Source of the DNA: a virus
Virus record (IMG/VR): IMGVR_UViG_3300046171_000193
Location: 87,682 to 151,681 of that record
Direction: 5' to 3' (one strand)
DNA length: 64,000 nt
The notes below the pieces were generated by a model. The model had not been told where the DNA came from, did no database searches, and worked only from the letters and a program-made list of their open reading frames with translations. The translations under genes and the position numbers were made by a program. Shown here piece after piece: positions 33,050-37,981 of the stretch. Within the stretch, counting starts at the first letter, position 1, and the number at the start of each line of letters is the position of its first letter.

Positions 33050-33252
33050 TGAAAGAATTTGTATTAGTAATTAGCATGTGGGGCAATAATGGCACCGTAT
33101 GGGAATATATAGGTAATCAATATGTGATGAATGAAAAATTTACAGAAGCTCAATGTGAGATTTTAGTAGATAATTCTAATTGGAAAAAACACATAATAAA
33201 CGAATACTATAAATTACAATTCGATTGTTTTCACGAGGACAACCATAACTAA
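33049..33252 (+). CDS. Small hypothetical protein
   Basis: 67 residues, ATG overlapping the gp44 stop by one base and ending with a one-base overlap to the next gene. Trp/Asn-rich (MWGNNGTVWEYIGNQYVMNE), no recognised domain. Coupled translation with gp44 supports it as real. Confidence 0.6.
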   Translation: MKEFVLVISMWGNNGTVWEYIGNQYVMNEKFTEAQCEILVDNSNWKKHIINEYYKLQFDCFHEDNHN

Positions 33253-34292
33253 TGTTAGTATTATATACGCAACCTAGATGTCACTATTGTGAGATCATGA
33301 AAAGGATGCTGAGTAAGATGGACGAGGCCGAAGGCTTTCAAACCTTAGACATTACTAAAGATCCTGAAGCTAGAGCCTTTCTAAAAAAGAAAGGTCACAA
33401 AACCGTTCCTATGCTTTATTTAAAAGTGCCTGATCATGAGATATGGATTAATAAAGATATTGATACTAGAAAGCTAACAGGCGAAAACTTAGGTAAAAGA
33501 ATAACAGATGCTATAGCACAGACAAAGAAGGATAACTGTCTAGTATTTGATGTTGATGGTACGTTAACACCAAGTAGAGAAAAGATAGATCCTGCACATG
33601 CTGAAATAATAATGGATCTTGCTAGTAAGGTCGACATTTACATTATAACAGGATCAGACTTTGCCAAAACAAAAGAACAATTAGGAGACATTACTAAAGT
33701 TGTAAAAGGTTCCTATCAATGTGCAGGCAATGAATTATGGGTAAATGATAAGTTAGTTCAATCTGTTCCTGAATTTAATATGTCTAAAGTAATGGTACAA
33801 TGGTGTAAGCAAAAACTAGAAGAAAGCAGATTTCCTCATAGGACAGGCAAGAAGCATATTGACCTTCGGCCGGGTATGATGAACTTTTCTATTCTTGGTA
33901 GAGGCTGTACTAGAGCTCAAAGAAAACAATACATTGATTATGACACAAAAAATAATGAGAGAGAAGTTTTAGCAAGCGAGTTTAATTCAATATTCCATAC
34001 ATACTCTGCCCAAATAGCTGGAGAAACAGGTATTGACGTGTGCGAACGAGGAAGAGATAAAGGGCAGGTGTACAAACCGCTAGAAACATTGTATAATAGT
34101 ATTATCTTCTTTGGCGATGATACGCAAGAAGGTGGGAACGATTATCCGTTTGCAAAGCAAATAGAAGGATTCCCGCATCGGTGTTTTCATGTCAGCGGAC
34201 CGGAAGAAACATTTGAATCTTTAGAAGGTATCAAAAGATTATTTCTTGATGAATGGCCTGGCCAAGATAGTGGAATAGAAGGACAACTATGA
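33252..34292 (+). CDS. Glutaredoxin-phosphomannomutase fusion (eukaryotic-type PMM)
   Basis: 346 residues in two domains. Residues 1-90 are a glutaredoxin: LYTQPRCHYCE with the redox pair Cys10/Cys13 and cis-proline TVP (51-53). Residues 96-340 match alpha-phosphomannomutase of the eukaryotic HAD type: VFDVDGTLTPSR (Asp100/Asp102), ITGSDFAKTKEQLG, DLRPGMMNFSILGRGC, and IIFFGDDTQEGGNDYPF. PMM interconverts mannose 6- and 1-phosphate for GDP-mannose. The gene sits between the two clamp-loader genes, far from the other sugar genes. I know of no standard protein with this domain pair. Alternatively the HAD domain acts on another phosphosugar. Confidence 0.82.
   Translation: MLVLYTQPRCHYCEIMKRMLSKMDEAEGFQTLDITKDPEARAFLKKKGHKTVPMLYLKVPDHEIWINKDIDTRKLTGENLGKRITDAIAQTKKDNCLVFDVDGTLTPSREKIDPAHAEIIMDLASKVDIYIITGSDFAKTKEQLGDITKVVKGSYQCAGNELWVNDKLVQSVPEFNMSKVMVQWCKQKLEESRFPHRTGKKHIDLRPGMMNFSILGRGCTRAQRKQYIDYDTKNNEREVLASEFNSIFHTYSAQIAGETGIDVCERGRDKGQVYKPLETLYNSIIFFGDDTQEGGNDYPFAKQIEGFPHRCFHVSGPEETFESLEGIKRLFLDEWPGQDSGIEGQL
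34069..34097 (+). promoter_or_regulatory. Sigma70-like promoter inside the fusion gene, upstream of gp62
   Basis: TGTACA (34069-34074), 17-bp spacer, TATAAT (34092-34097). It would start transcripts about 190 bp before gp62-regA. Confidence 0.55.
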
Positions 34293-35105: not shown

Positions 35106-35113
35106 TATAAATA
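35106..35113 (+). promoter_or_regulatory. T4-type late promoter of hsp20
   Basis: Exact TATAAATA. A partial sigma70-like element (TGTACT at 35082, TATATA at 35104) overlaps it, so hsp20 may be expressed both early and late. Confidence 0.8.
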
Positions 35114-35169: not shown

Positions 35170-35634
35170 ATGACAAGTAATTTCGTATATCCACGGAACG
35201 CATTCTTAGGTTTCGACCACATCTTCGATCAGCTGGAGTCTATTCACAGCCACGCGAAGGATACTTATCCCCCACATAACGTAATTAAACACGACAATAT
35301 GAAATATGAGATTGAACTTGCTGTTGCAGGTTTCAATAAAGATCATATTGATATTGAAATCAAAGACCACGTGCTCACTATCACAGGTGATAGACCACAA
35401 AGGCGTGATCAAAATAGTTACGTTCACAAAGGGATTAGTGCTCGAAGGTTTAAGAAGTCGTATCGTCTAAGCGAATACACAGAAGTCACTGGAGCAGACA
35501 TGAAGGATGGGATTTTGACAGTCGGTTTAGAAGTCGTCCTACCAGAAGAGAAGCGTCCTCGTAAAATCAATATTGGTCAAAACGAGGTAATCAATGACAA
35601 ATCTACTAAAGAACTTCTTACAGAAGCTACGTAA
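35170..35634 (+). CDS. hsp20: Small heat shock protein Hsp20
   Basis: 154 residues. Alpha-crystallin domain with YEIELAVAGFNKDHIDIEIKDHVLTITGD, RRFKKSYRLSEYTEVTGADMKDGILTVGLE. The N-terminus (FLGFDHIFDQLES) is IbpA-like. It holds unfolded proteins in the cytoplasm; hsp20 genes are common in marine T4-like phages. AGGAGG precedes the start. Confidence 0.93.
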   Translation: MTSNFVYPRNAFLGFDHIFDQLESIHSHAKDTYPPHNVIKHDNMKYEIELAVAGFNKDHIDIEIKDHVLTITGDRPQRRDQNSYVHKGISARRFKKSYRLSEYTEVTGADMKDGILTVGLEVVLPEEKRPRKINIGQNEVINDKSTKELLTEAT

Positions 35635-35797
35635 CAGACAAACCTATAGAAACACTTATAATGAACTTTCAAGCCTTACAGATTATGAATTAAATGATAT
35701 TGGCATTACTCGAGGGGACATTAAAAGAGTAGCTATGGGAGATCCATCTTATCGATTAGTCACAGACTATAATGATAATCTGAAAGGATGGGTTTAA
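35594..35797 (+). CDS. DUF1127 (YjiS-like) small protein
   Basis: 67 residues. ELSSLTDYELNDIGITRGDIKRVA is the DUF1127 signature (LSxLxDxELxDIGIxRxDI). Such proteins are abundant in alphaproteobacteria, where some bind RNA or act in stress and phosphate responses. Its start lies inside the 3' end of hsp20, and it abuts the next DUF1127-like ORF. Confidence 0.82.
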   Translation: MTNLLKNFLQKLRNRQTYRNTYNELSSLTDYELNDIGITRGDIKRVAMGDPSYRLVTDYNDNLKGWV

Positions 35798-35961
35798 TGA
35801 CAATTATAACGTCTTATATATTCTCGCCATTGTCGGGATTGTGGTCTTCATTAGACCGTACTATGAAGGTGATAGGGTACTCACGGGCAGCGGCAGAACT
35901 AACGCGGCTTGGGTATCACGAGCAATCTAAACGGCTTATGATGGAATTTAAGAACTTATAA
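35797..35961 (+). CDS. Second DUF1127-like small protein
   Basis: 54 residues, ATG overlapping the preceding stop by one base. The C-terminus YSRAAAELTRLGYHEQSKRLMMEF follows the usual alphaproteobacterial DUF1127 pattern (RAAAELxRLGYHExxKRLM). The late promoter at 35957 overlaps its end. Function unknown; perhaps mimics a host regulator. Confidence 0.65.
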   Translation: MTIITSYIFSPLSGLWSSLDRTMKVIGYSRAAAELTRLGYHEQSKRLMMEFKNL

Positions 35962-35964
35962 ATA
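35957..35964 (+). promoter_or_regulatory. T4-type late promoter of the doxX operon
   Basis: Exact TATAAATA 24 bp before the gene at 35988, with AGAGGTG between. Confidence 0.78.
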
Positions 35965-35987: not shown

Positions 35988-36395
35988 ATGATAAAAAACA
36001 TTGTTAATAAAATTCCAGAATTTTGTATGAGTCATTGGCTTTTTCGTATTCCATTGGCTATTGTTTTTCTACAGCAAGGCTTTAGTAAATTACCGGTAAC
36101 AATAGAAGGTGCAGAAAGTTTTGACTTGCCTTACATTGTGTGGTGGTTTGCAGCATACGGTGAGATCGGTGCTGGTATTGGCTTGCTTGTAGGCGGAGCC
36201 ATTATATGGCAGAAGCTAAAAGAAATTAATGATATTATAACTCGGTTCAGCGGTATTACAATTTGTAGTATTATGACAGGAGTTATATGGGTAGGTCAAC
36301 CAGAAAGTTTCTGGGATGTTATCTTGTACGATAACTTCCATGTGTTTCTTTGGGTTGGCGGTTTATATTTTGCACTGAGAGGTAATAGAACATGA
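35988..36395 (+). CDS. DoxX-like membrane protein
   Basis: 135 residues with four hydrophobic segments. FRIPLAIVFLQQGFSKLP and the later FAAYGEIGAGIGLLVGG and DNFHVFLWVGG follow the DoxX/DoxD pattern of small quinone-linked inner-membrane proteins. First gene of a run of small membrane proteins that ends with a pseudoazurin, so a link to respiration or redox balance is plausible. Overlaps the next gene by 4 bp. Confidence 0.68.
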   Translation: MIKNIVNKIPEFCMSHWLFRIPLAIVFLQQGFSKLPVTIEGAESFDLPYIVWWFAAYGEIGAGIGLLVGGAIIWQKLKEINDIITRFSGITICSIMTGVIWVGQPESFWDVILYDNFHVFLWVGGLYFALRGNRT

Positions 36396-36592
36396 GAGAG
36401 CAACTAATTAAGGCAGCTAGAATGCACGCAGAAGGTGAGCTAGAGCGGGCCAAAACTAATTTTGAGGTCTACTTAAATCATCCTGTAGGCATTGGTGAAC
36501 ATAGCGATATTGTTGAAGCTATGCAGAAAGAGCTAAGTACTATGGGTCATGCATCCGAACGATTAGAAATGCTAGCTAAGCATTTTGAATAA
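36392..36592 (+). CDS. Small conserved phage protein (MREQLIKAA family)
   Basis: 66 residues, all helical. REQLIKAARMHAEGELERAKTNFEVYLNHPVGIGEHSDIVEAM is, from memory, strongly conserved in marine T4-like phages, with no known function. Overlaps both neighbours (4 bp and 1 bp). Confidence 0.75.
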   Translation: MREQLIKAARMHAEGELERAKTNFEVYLNHPVGIGEHSDIVEAMQKELSTMGHASERLEMLAKHFE

Positions 36593-36747
36593 TGAGCGAG
36601 AACTATTGTACTACTAAAGGGCTAGGATGGGCCTTTCTAATTATTATTATTGGAATGGTAGGTATGCCTATTCTTGGGGCAGCGATTGCTTATCCAGACA
36701 ACTGTAAGCAGTCCATTCTTATTCCATGCATAGGACTAGGTGAATAA
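36592..36747 (+). CDS. Small single-span membrane protein
   Basis: 51 residues. One transmembrane helix at about residues 12-34 (AFLIIIIGMVGMPILG) and a short tail with two cysteines (NCKQSILIPC). The ATG overlaps the upstream stop by one base and the stop abuts the next ATG. Function unknown. Confidence 0.6.
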   Translation: MSENYCTTKGLGWAFLIIIIGMVGMPILGAAIAYPDNCKQSILIPCIGLGE

Positions 36748-36939
36748 ATGCACTTTACTATTATTAATAATAGCACAGGTGAAACATTTGATATGGAATT
36801 TGATTCTCATGAACAGAAAGAAAAGTGGCTTGATCTGTCCAAGGGGTTTAAATGCCTTGGTGAAGTACAAGGTGACTATCTTCCAACTCGTCACGTGAGA
36901 ATGAGAAACAAAGAGGAACACGCAGGATGGGGGAGTTAG
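36748..36939 (+). CDS. Small hypothetical protein
   Basis: 63 residues, soluble, beginning MHFTIINNSTGETFDMEFDS. No domain recognised. It is packed between membrane-protein genes and overlaps the next start by 13 bp. Confidence 0.55.
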   Translation: MHFTIINNSTGETFDMEFDSHEQKEKWLDLSKGFKCLGEVQGDYLPTRHVRMRNKEEHAGWGS

Positions 36940-37145
36940 ACCCAAGAGCAGAAGCTCAAGAAGAAGCCGAAGTAACATTTGACGCTTTTATGTTATGGAC
37001 AAAAAGAGTTACGATGTATGCTGCAATATTTCTTGGTATTGTTGTGTTTGGTTGTAATGCAGGAGTAGAAACTGGTAAAAATAAGACTGGCTCTCAATAT
37101 AACGGAGAACAGTACGACCCATATAATTTAAATAAGGATAAGTAA
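36927..37145 (+). CDS. Single-span membrane protein, weakly like aa3 oxidase subunit IV
   Basis: 72 residues. An acidic N-terminus, then EVTFDAFMLWTKRVTMYAAIFLGIVVFG with one membrane helix. The TFDAFMLWTKR pattern before the helix recalls the tiny alphaproteobacterial aa3-type cytochrome oxidase subunit IV (TYxGFLKLTK), but that is a weak match by eye. Neighbour to DoxX-like and pseudoazurin genes. Confidence 0.5.
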   Translation: MGELDPRAEAQEEAEVTFDAFMLWTKRVTMYAAIFLGIVVFGCNAGVETGKNKTGSQYNGEQYDPYNLNKDK

Positions 37146-37471
37146 TGAATGGAAGTATAAAAGCATTTCCTCCTATGGCTTTGTGGATAGTAGCCAAGGA
37201 AGGATGGAAGAGTATAATGACTATAGAGCATTCGCCTCTTCGTAAACTACCACCTCAACTCGGATTAATGGTATTTTTAATTCTGTCAGTTATGTGGAGT
37301 GGTATCTTTGCTGCTCTTATAAGCAATCCATACATATTTGGTTGGACAGCTGGCGGACATGTTCTAGTTATTTCCGGAATTTTTATAACAGCAATCGTTC
37401 ATCAGCAGGCTGATAAGTATCCCACACACATGAAGTATAGTGGAAGAAGCGCTAATGGTGAACACGAATAA
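37145..37471 (+). CDS. Two-span membrane protein
   Basis: 108 residues with two hydrophobic helices (about residues 41-62 and 68-87). HSPLRKLPPQLGLMVFLILSVMWSGIF recalls a conserved small membrane protein of marine T4-like phages. Function unknown; coupled to the upstream gene by a one-base overlap. Confidence 0.6.
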   Translation: MNGSIKAFPPMALWIVAKEGWKSIMTIEHSPLRKLPPQLGLMVFLILSVMWSGIFAALISNPYIFGWTAGGHVLVISGIFITAIVHQQADKYPTHMKYSGRSANGEHE

Positions 37472-37480
37472 GGATAAGAT

Positions 37481-37912
37481 ATGAATAAAGCTCTAATATT
37501 TACTATGGTACTTACCTTTTTGAGTACTATGATTATATCAGCTGCTAACGCAGGAGATATTACTATTGAAATGTTGAACAAACGTGACGATGGACAAAAG
37601 ATGGTTTACTCTGCAGATATTGCTAGAGTAGAAGTAGGTACTACAATAACATGGATTCCGACGTCAAAAGGACATAACGTAGAATTTATTGCTGGACCTG
37701 ATGAATGGGATATGCCGAAGAAATCAAAGAACAATAAAGAAGTTTCTATTACCTTTGATGTTCCAGGCGTTTATGTATATCAATGTACGCCACACGCAAC
37801 AATGGGCATGATTGCTTTAGTTGTAGTTGGTGATGGTGATAATGACGTATCTAAAGCAAAGGTACGAGGAAAGTCTAAAAGAAAGCTAAAGGAACTTTTA
37901 AAGGAGCTGTAA
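37481..37912 (+). CDS. Pseudoazurin-like blue copper protein
   Basis: 143 residues. A signal peptide (residues 1-24, cut after AANA) sends it to the periplasm. Cupredoxin fold with the type 1 copper ligands His65 (KGHNVEF), Cys102 and His105 (QCTPHATMGM) and Met110, at the exact pseudoazurin spacing C-x2-H-x4-M. TPHATMGMIALVVVGD is pseudoazurin wording, not plastocyanin. Pseudoazurin carries electrons from cytochrome bc1 to terminal or denitrification reductases in proteobacteria. The basic C-terminal tail (KAKVRGKSKRKLKELLKEL) is an unusual extension. Confidence 0.87.
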   Translation: MNKALIFTMVLTFLSTMIISAANAGDITIEMLNKRDDGQKMVYSADIARVEVGTTITWIPTSKGHNVEFIAGPDEWDMPKKSKNNKEVSITFDVPGVYVYQCTPHATMGMIALVVVGDGDNDVSKAKVRGKSKRKLKELLKEL

Positions 37913-37956
37913 TGCTTGATCCTGATCACTCATATCGAAAAAAAGTTGGAAAATAA
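37912..37956 (+). CDS. Possible 14-residue micro-ORF
   Basis: MLDPDHSYRKKVGK, ATG overlapping the pseudoazurin stop (TAATG) behind a strong AAAGGAG. It ends at the terminator. Could be a leader or spurious. Confidence 0.3.
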   Translation: MLDPDHSYRKKVGK

Positions 37957-37981
37957 AAAGGGCGCTTCGGCGCCTTTTTTT
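37956..37981 (+). terminator. Intrinsic terminator before the polymerase gene (TTCG tetraloop)
   Basis: AAAAGGGCGC, TTCG, GCGCC and a seven-T run. It closes the pseudoazurin operon and separates it from the gp43 promoter two bases on. Confidence 0.92.

Follow-up and report, generated by a model that had tools for sequence, protein, structure and literature searches.

Electron carriers encoded by phages are so far best known from photosynthesis, as illustrated by the plastocyanin (PetE) of cyanophages. Phages also carry sulfur-oxidation AMGs, including soxYZ, soxC, soxD, dsrA, and dsrC (PMC8190135), and in the S. meliloti sorT-cytochrome c-pseudoazurin operon the pseudoazurin is the proposed electron acceptor through which electrons from sulfite reach the respiratory chain (PMC3511301). 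Here, we describe a gene block of marine, T4-related phages, known only from metagenomes, in which a pseudoazurin-like copper protein is encoded together with a DoxX-family membrane protein, a small protein resembling subunit IV of aa3-type oxidases (COX4-like), and several other small proteins. The block lies within a stretch of 64,000 nucleotides (the window), corresponding to positions 87682 to 151681 of a 151681-base IMG/VR virus record (IMGVR_UViG_3300046171_000193). We propose, with roughly even confidence, that it is a phage-encoded respiratory electron-flow module, with electrons from sulfur compounds or quinol reaching an aa3-type oxidase. No report of a pseudoazurin in a phage was found in the literature searched; most subscription journals lie outside that literature, and the absence is not proof.

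Organization of the block

The window codes elsewhere for T4-like functions, including the tail sheath, portal, head scaffold, helicase, SbcC, clamp loader, primase, and DNA polymerase, the last of which is 57% identical to that of Phage C48C1 and no more than about 50% identical to the others among the matches listed. The block (35988 to 37912) is situated between the Hsp20/DUF1127 genes and the DNA polymerase gene, and all of its genes are on the + strand (Table 1). The DoxX-like protein, subunit IV-like helix, small membrane proteins, and cupredoxin recognized in an earlier, sequence-only reading of this DNA are all present and encoded end to end, and the conserved set is broader than first named, also including the 108-aa, 51-aa, and 63-aa ORFs.

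For the late promoter and terminator proposed in that reading, a late-promoter match and a strong terminator are found (Table 1). There are 11 occurrences of TATAAATA on the + strand of the window and one on the - strand, with an expectation of 6.7 per strand, and the match ahead of DoxX is kept solely in DoxX-first blocks near to that of the window (8 of 49 distinct blocks, in 8 close relatives). The block is probably expressed late in infection. The upstream genes are common neighbors of related blocks, with DUF1127 nearby in 33 and Hsp20 in 25 of 81 loci; the DUF1127 family is associated with stress and RNA regulation in alphaproteobacteria. We also note a conserved 57-aa ORF 3' of the phage DUF1127 gene, a 14-codon ORF (MLDPDHSYRKKVGK, 37912 to 37956) that overlaps the pseudoazurin stop codon and ends where the terminator begins, and a 346-aa fusion (33252 to 34292) of a thioredoxin-family domain (PHROG 22) and a PHROG 29277 domain, which appears HAD-like by eye.

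Table 1. Features of the block and its upstream neighbors (window coordinates)
Feature	Position	Strand	Remarks
Hsp20 chaperone, upstream	35170..35634	+	Own TATAAATA at 35106; frequent block neighbor in relatives
DUF1127 small protein, upstream	35594..35797	+	Pfam 5.4e-14; overlaps Hsp20 end
T4-type late promoter match TATAAATA	35957..35964	+	31 bp 5' of DoxX ATG
DoxX-family membrane protein, 135 aa	35988..36395	+	Pfam DoxX PF07681
66-aa protein, PHROG 1811, function unknown	36392..36592	+	4.4e-27
51-aa single-helix protein, conserved Cys (NYCTTKGLGWAF...C...C)	36592..36747	+	Alignment
63-aa soluble protein, conserved end LPTRHVRM-NKEEFAGWGS	36748..36939	+	Alignment
72-aa COX4_pro_2-like helix, lipobox-like Cys, conserved tail of ~30 residues	36927..37145	+	Pfam, profiles
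108-aa two-helix membrane protein, invariant C-terminal GEHE	37145..37471	+	Host homologues exist
Pseudoazurin precursor, 143 aa	37481..37912	+	Signal peptide about 1-24; Cu ligands H65, C102, H105, M110
Intrinsic terminator, end of unit	37955..37980	+	11-pair stem and T run

The copper protein

The cupredoxin matches the Pfam Copper-bind family (PF00127) with 58.5 bits (E = 9e-16), and its type-1 copper ligands are unchanged in all 34 phage homologues. The ligand spacing had been read as exactly that of pseudoazurins; the ligands themselves prove invariant, but the Cys-x2-His-x4-Met loop is also present in plastocyanin and is not pseudoazurin specific by itself. More telling are the gap of 37 residues between the first His and the Cys, and the C-terminal helix. 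The TIGR02375 pseudoazurin model gives the highest score of the cupredoxin models (97.9 bits, with 46.1 for amicyanin and 29.7 for plastocyanin), and pseudoazurins are likewise the best matches in a sequence search of the PDB (S. meliloti 3tu6, 1.8e-22), ahead of amicyanin (5e-10) and plastocyanin (1.6e-6). With an AlphaFold model of the protein (pLDDT 89.6) as the query, a fold search of the PDB returns pseudoazurins at all of ranks 1 to 27 (TMt up to 0.88), with plastocyanins next (7e-8). By sequence, profile, and predicted fold, the copper protein is pseudoazurin-like and not plastocyanin-like, in agreement with its initial assignment. We note, however, that its score falls short of the TIGR02375 equivalog cut-off of 109.85 bits, and it is thus pseudoazurin-like but not a certified equivalog; among host proteins, the sox-linked SAR116 pseudoazurin is also below this cut-off (104.5), and that of SAR11 HTCC9565 is above it (119.8). 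A plastocyanin (PetE) identity was considered separately and rejected, the TIGR02656 score being far below the cut-off of 87.85 bits and the leading fold matches all being pseudoazurins.

There are 245 relatives of the pseudoazurin in IMG/VR. In a 143-row tree, a quick version built from 123 columns in which the deep forks are not separated, the phage copies form essentially one group; two of them (L055 and L089) fall outside its core, and it takes in a single bacterial row, that of Rhodobacteraceae MED-G08 (L087). The closest sequences to the phage group, with moderate support, come from marine Rhodobacteraceae and SAR116, along with a few others. Three phage-like contigs inside MAGs of the genome collection (L083, L088, and L089) are counted as phage; L089, a 335-kb contig binned as Neomarinimicrobiota, has the look of a large phage and codes for two 108-aa-family-like proteins as well as the pseudoazurin.

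The subunit IV-like protein and other block members

The 72-aa protein had been described as weakly like aa3 oxidase subunit IV, and profile comparisons in both directions indicate that the likeness is real at the family level. The window protein itself scores 19.7 bits against COX4_pro_2 (PF07835; E = 1e-3), just below the 22-bit gathering cut-off, and 16 of 20 phage homologues match this family, the best at 1.1e-5. A profile built only from the phage proteins has three matches among 240 alphaproteobacterial genomes (E ≤ 0.01). Every one of these is a subunit IV gene; two adjoin pntA, and the third has the typical sequence MAEHEHGSMDIKVQEKTFEGFIKW... Alignment of the phage family with 15 host sequences by hhalign yields a probability of 95.9% and a score of 42.5, whereas 60 column shuffles score no higher than 21. 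The shared region spans 25 columns and includes an acidic stretch, TF-x2-F, a basic residue, and the start of the membrane helix. However, the host subunit IV stops after the helix, and the tail is the most conserved part of the phage protein; a V-x-[GSA]-C-N lipobox is also perfect in 20 of 20 aligned members. The sequence is compatible with two readings, a helix of the oxidase type that continues into a periplasmic tail and a lipoprotein whose signal peptide is unusual. The profile has no sequence match in the PDB, and IMG/VR contains 482 relatives.

DoxX passes the PF07681 gathering score (32.1 bits with a cut-off of 23.6; E = 1.8e-7) and has 364 relatives in IMG/VR, with no match in PHROGs. 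The 108-aa protein is modeled by AlphaFold with helices at residues 37 to 59 and 62 to 91 (mean pLDDT 75), and neither its sequence nor its fold has a meaningful match in the PDB. The 66-aa PHROG 1811 protein is an irregular member, present in 25 of 81 loci, and the 63-aa gene is found at 9 of 36 distinct pseudoazurin loci. The 51-aa gene is close to pseudoazurin in 15 of 36 distinct loci and to COX4-like in 21 of 34.

Recurrence and constraint in marine phages

The DoxX, COX4-like, and pseudoazurin genes and one coding for a 2-TM protein stay linked across many contigs of related marine phages. At 36 distinct pseudoazurin loci with flanking sequence, DoxX is nearby in 23, COX4-like in 21, and the 108-aa gene in 12, in about 20 different gene orders. 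Median dN/dS values are 0.08 to 0.19 for the block genes and 0.07 for the polymerase, indicating purifying selection on every member tested, and this constraint, together with recurrence in shuffled order in other phages, places the block beyond chance. In the reciprocal direction, pseudoazurin is near 20 of 30 distinct DoxX loci and 8 of 34 distinct COX4-like loci, and the membrane proteins thus form a core of their own. The DoxX, COX4-like, and 108-aa genes are often found with no copper protein nearby, which is thus a common associate that the block can do without. A c-type cytochrome does not evidently take its place, as blocks without pseudoazurin contain just a few CxxCH ORFs in no particular pattern.

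None of 50,697 named phages, including Pelagibacter phage HTVC008M, has a match to the pseudoazurin, DoxX, COX4-like, or 51-aa protein, and a homologue of the 108-aa protein is present in Phage C48C1 alone (31.5%). By this comparison, the DoxX and COX4-like partners are new to phages.

Host homologues and their neighborhoods

The sulfur donor that we propose for the pseudoazurin is drawn solely from host gene context, which suggests a link to sulfur-compound oxidation. In SAR116-type genomes (nine loci), pseudoazurin heads a cluster of the form paz-thioredoxin-soxY-soxZ-soxC-soxD-soxB, and in two SAR11 genomes, one of them HTCC9565, its neighbors include a molybdenum sulfite-dehydrogenase-like gene along with cytochrome c and Moco genes (the SoxY and Mo domains are confirmed, and the other names are read from the sequences). 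The neighbors differ in OCS116, Rhodobacteraceae, and most SAR11 genomes, and the sox/sulfite-dehydrogenase context is therefore not universal. The sequence-only reading had the copper protein feeding denitrification reductases as one option; this option is not supported, as no denitrification genes are seen in the host pseudoazurin neighborhoods read, where Sox or sulfite dehydrogenase and Moco genes are found instead.

The closest host DoxX proteins (48 to 58% identical to that of the window) belong to one alphaproteobacterial order with genomes of 0.9 to 2.0 Mb, in which DoxX is present in 14 of 32 genomes (E ≤ 1e-46), pseudoazurin in 18 of 32, and COX4_pro_2 in 25 of 32. A blastn comparison with named loci yielded no match for this order. 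Host DoxX adjoins a type II NADH dehydrogenase (NDH-2) gene in four loci read (L221, L244, L245, and L246), and the NDH-2 domain is confirmed in L261. Elsewhere in this group, a Cys-rich, metallothionein-like small ORF lies by a Fur-family gene near host DoxX (L260:5945-6094), a possible metal link.

Relatives of the 108-aa protein are encoded by 19 of 240 alphaproteobacterial genomes and are also present in SAR11, SAR116, and OCS116; one from SAR116 ends in SANGEHE, as does the phage protein. A PsiE gene lies 3' of the 108-aa family gene in both SAR116 (L173:4153-4865) and SAR11 (L175:3579-4417), an uncharacterised conserved pair, and in an OCS116 single cell (L174:1-4803) the family gene adjoins a carotenoid and beta-carotene dioxygenase cluster. 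Such clusters accompany proteorhodopsin.

Proposed role and alternatives

We infer a path in which the pseudoazurin would act as a periplasmic carrier between host sulfite or thiosulfate dehydrogenases, or the quinol/bc1 branch, and an aa3-type terminal oxidase. DoxX would work at the quinone/NDH-2 end, within the membrane, and the COX4-like protein would be inserted into the oxidase or lie against it, with a periplasmic tail that may aid docking of the carrier; the benefit would be sustained proton-motive force and ATP as host protein synthesis declines. Such a role is favored by the TIGR02375 score, the 27 fold matches, the invariant ligands, the subunit IV likeness, conserved linkage, purifying selection, and host context, and by the precedent of the S. 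meliloti sorT operon, S. meliloti pseudoazurin being also the top PDB sequence match. The sequence-only reading had staked its respiratory proposal on the copper protein not grouping with plastocyanins or non-electron-transfer cupredoxins and on oxidase similarity among its neighbors, and both are found. These data suggest, but do not prove, that the phages keep host respiration running during infection.

Several observations weigh against this role. No oxidase gene is recognized within the block, nor in the small number of other window ORFs that were scanned, and a blastp search with the SAR116 sox cluster against the phage flanks and the window matches pseudoazurin only, leaving no Sox donor in the flanks searched. 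The pseudoazurin is under the NCBI equivalog cut-off, DoxX function is poorly defined, the membrane proteins are frequently encoded without pseudoazurin, and host relatives of the 108-aa protein have PsiE, photolyase-related, PAS, or carotenoid-retinal genes as neighbors rather than oxidase genes. Cleavage by SPase II at the COX4-like lipobox would remove the subunit IV-like part, and given the perfect lipobox and the many blocks without pseudoazurin, oxidase docking is only a candidate step. A bolder version, in which a phage subunit IV variant recruits the phage pseudoazurin via the periplasmic tail and rewires the host aa3 oxidase to the phage carrier, is one that we consider fairly unlikely.

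A fairly unlikely alternative is that the block acts on the donor side, where oxidation of sulfur compounds in the periplasm would be the limiting step, with host sulfite dehydrogenase or SoxCD as the main source of electrons for the phage pseudoazurin. The sulfite would derive from taurine, other organosulfur compounds, or thiosulfate, the gains would be reduced sulfite toxicity and energy, as with the soxYZ/soxCD genes of phages, and the COX4-like protein would be incidental. The SAR116-type and SAR11 gene neighborhoods, the S. meliloti operon, and the known sulfur-oxidation genes of phages all fit this, but apart from the pseudoazurin the proteins of the SAR116 sox cluster are unmatched in the phage loci and the window, host neighborhoods vary among clades, and the COX4-like and two-helix proteins are left unexplained.

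We regard as unlikely a stress module, acting late in infection, in which Hsp20, DUF1127, DoxX, pseudoazurin, and the two-helix protein guard the envelope against oxidative or metal stress and the pseudoazurin serves to sequester copper or drain off electrons. Hsp20 and DUF1127 adjoin the block, and hsp20 is directly 3' of pseudoazurin in two SAR11 genomes and near host DoxX in two loci (L241 and L243). Host DoxX is also near Fur-family and CobW genes, host 108-aa relatives have the photolyase-related, PAS, and carotenoid-retinal neighbors noted above, and the C48C1 homologue is near an annotated peroxiredoxin. However, only 25 of 81 loci have Hsp20 close by, conservation of the type-1 copper site is like that of electron-transfer cupredoxins, and the COX4 likeness is unaccounted for.

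It is quite improbable that the small membrane proteins serve in lysis timing or phage exclusion, the COX4-like protein being a lipoprotein whose signal peptide resembles subunit IV and the pseudoazurin a mere neighbor. The invariant lipobox, highly conserved tail, upstream late-promoter match, and numerous COX4-like loci without pseudoazurin are compatible with such functions, but the conserved cytoplasmic EAExTFxxFMxWxKR matches subunit IV and is unneeded in a signal peptide, no lysis role is known for DoxX or pseudoazurin, and the pseudoazurin linkage survives many rearrangements. Finally, a hypervariable cargo site between Hsp20 and the DNA polymerase, gathering unrelated host genes by chance, would fit the variable gene order and the different content upstream of polB in C48C1, but is most improbable and largely refuted by the conserved linkage, with the same set found together in about 20 orders and at many loci with no polymerase nearby, and with each member tested under purifying selection.

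Comparison with known systems

The phage copper protein resembles bacterial pseudoazurins (TIGR02375; 3tu6, 1bqk, and Paracoccus pantotrophus 4bwu) in its fold, ligands, C-terminal helix, and secretion signal, but differs in being phage-borne, in scoring below the equivalog cut-off, and in having its own group in the tree. DoxX is over the PF07681 cut-off and has close alphaproteobacterial homologues, some adjoining NDH-2, although neither PHROGs nor the named phages contain a match to it. The COX4-like protein shares 25 aligned columns with aa3 subunit IV (COX4_pro_2, PF07835), including TF-x2-F and the helix start, but adds the lipobox and a tail of ~30 residues and is not beside pntA, unlike subunit IV in several host genomes.

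Like the block described here, the sulfur AMGs are phage genes proposed to raise the use of inorganic electron donors (PMC8190135); those code for enzymes or sulfur carriers, whereas the block codes for an electron carrier and membrane partners, with no Sox protein found. Cyanophage plastocyanin (PetE, PHROG 515) is a parallel in how it works, being likewise a phage-borne soluble blue-copper carrier. However, the window pseudoazurin matches PHROG 515 only weakly (2.8e-5) and has alphaproteobacterial pseudoazurins as its relatives, no photosynthesis genes are seen, and its partners are DoxX and the COX4-like protein. If the proposed role is correct, phages of heterotrophic marine bacteria also seize the electron-transport chain, at its respiratory end and possibly tied to sulfur-compound oxidation, and a rewired oxidase would do for respiration what the electron-transport genes of cyanophages do for photosynthesis.
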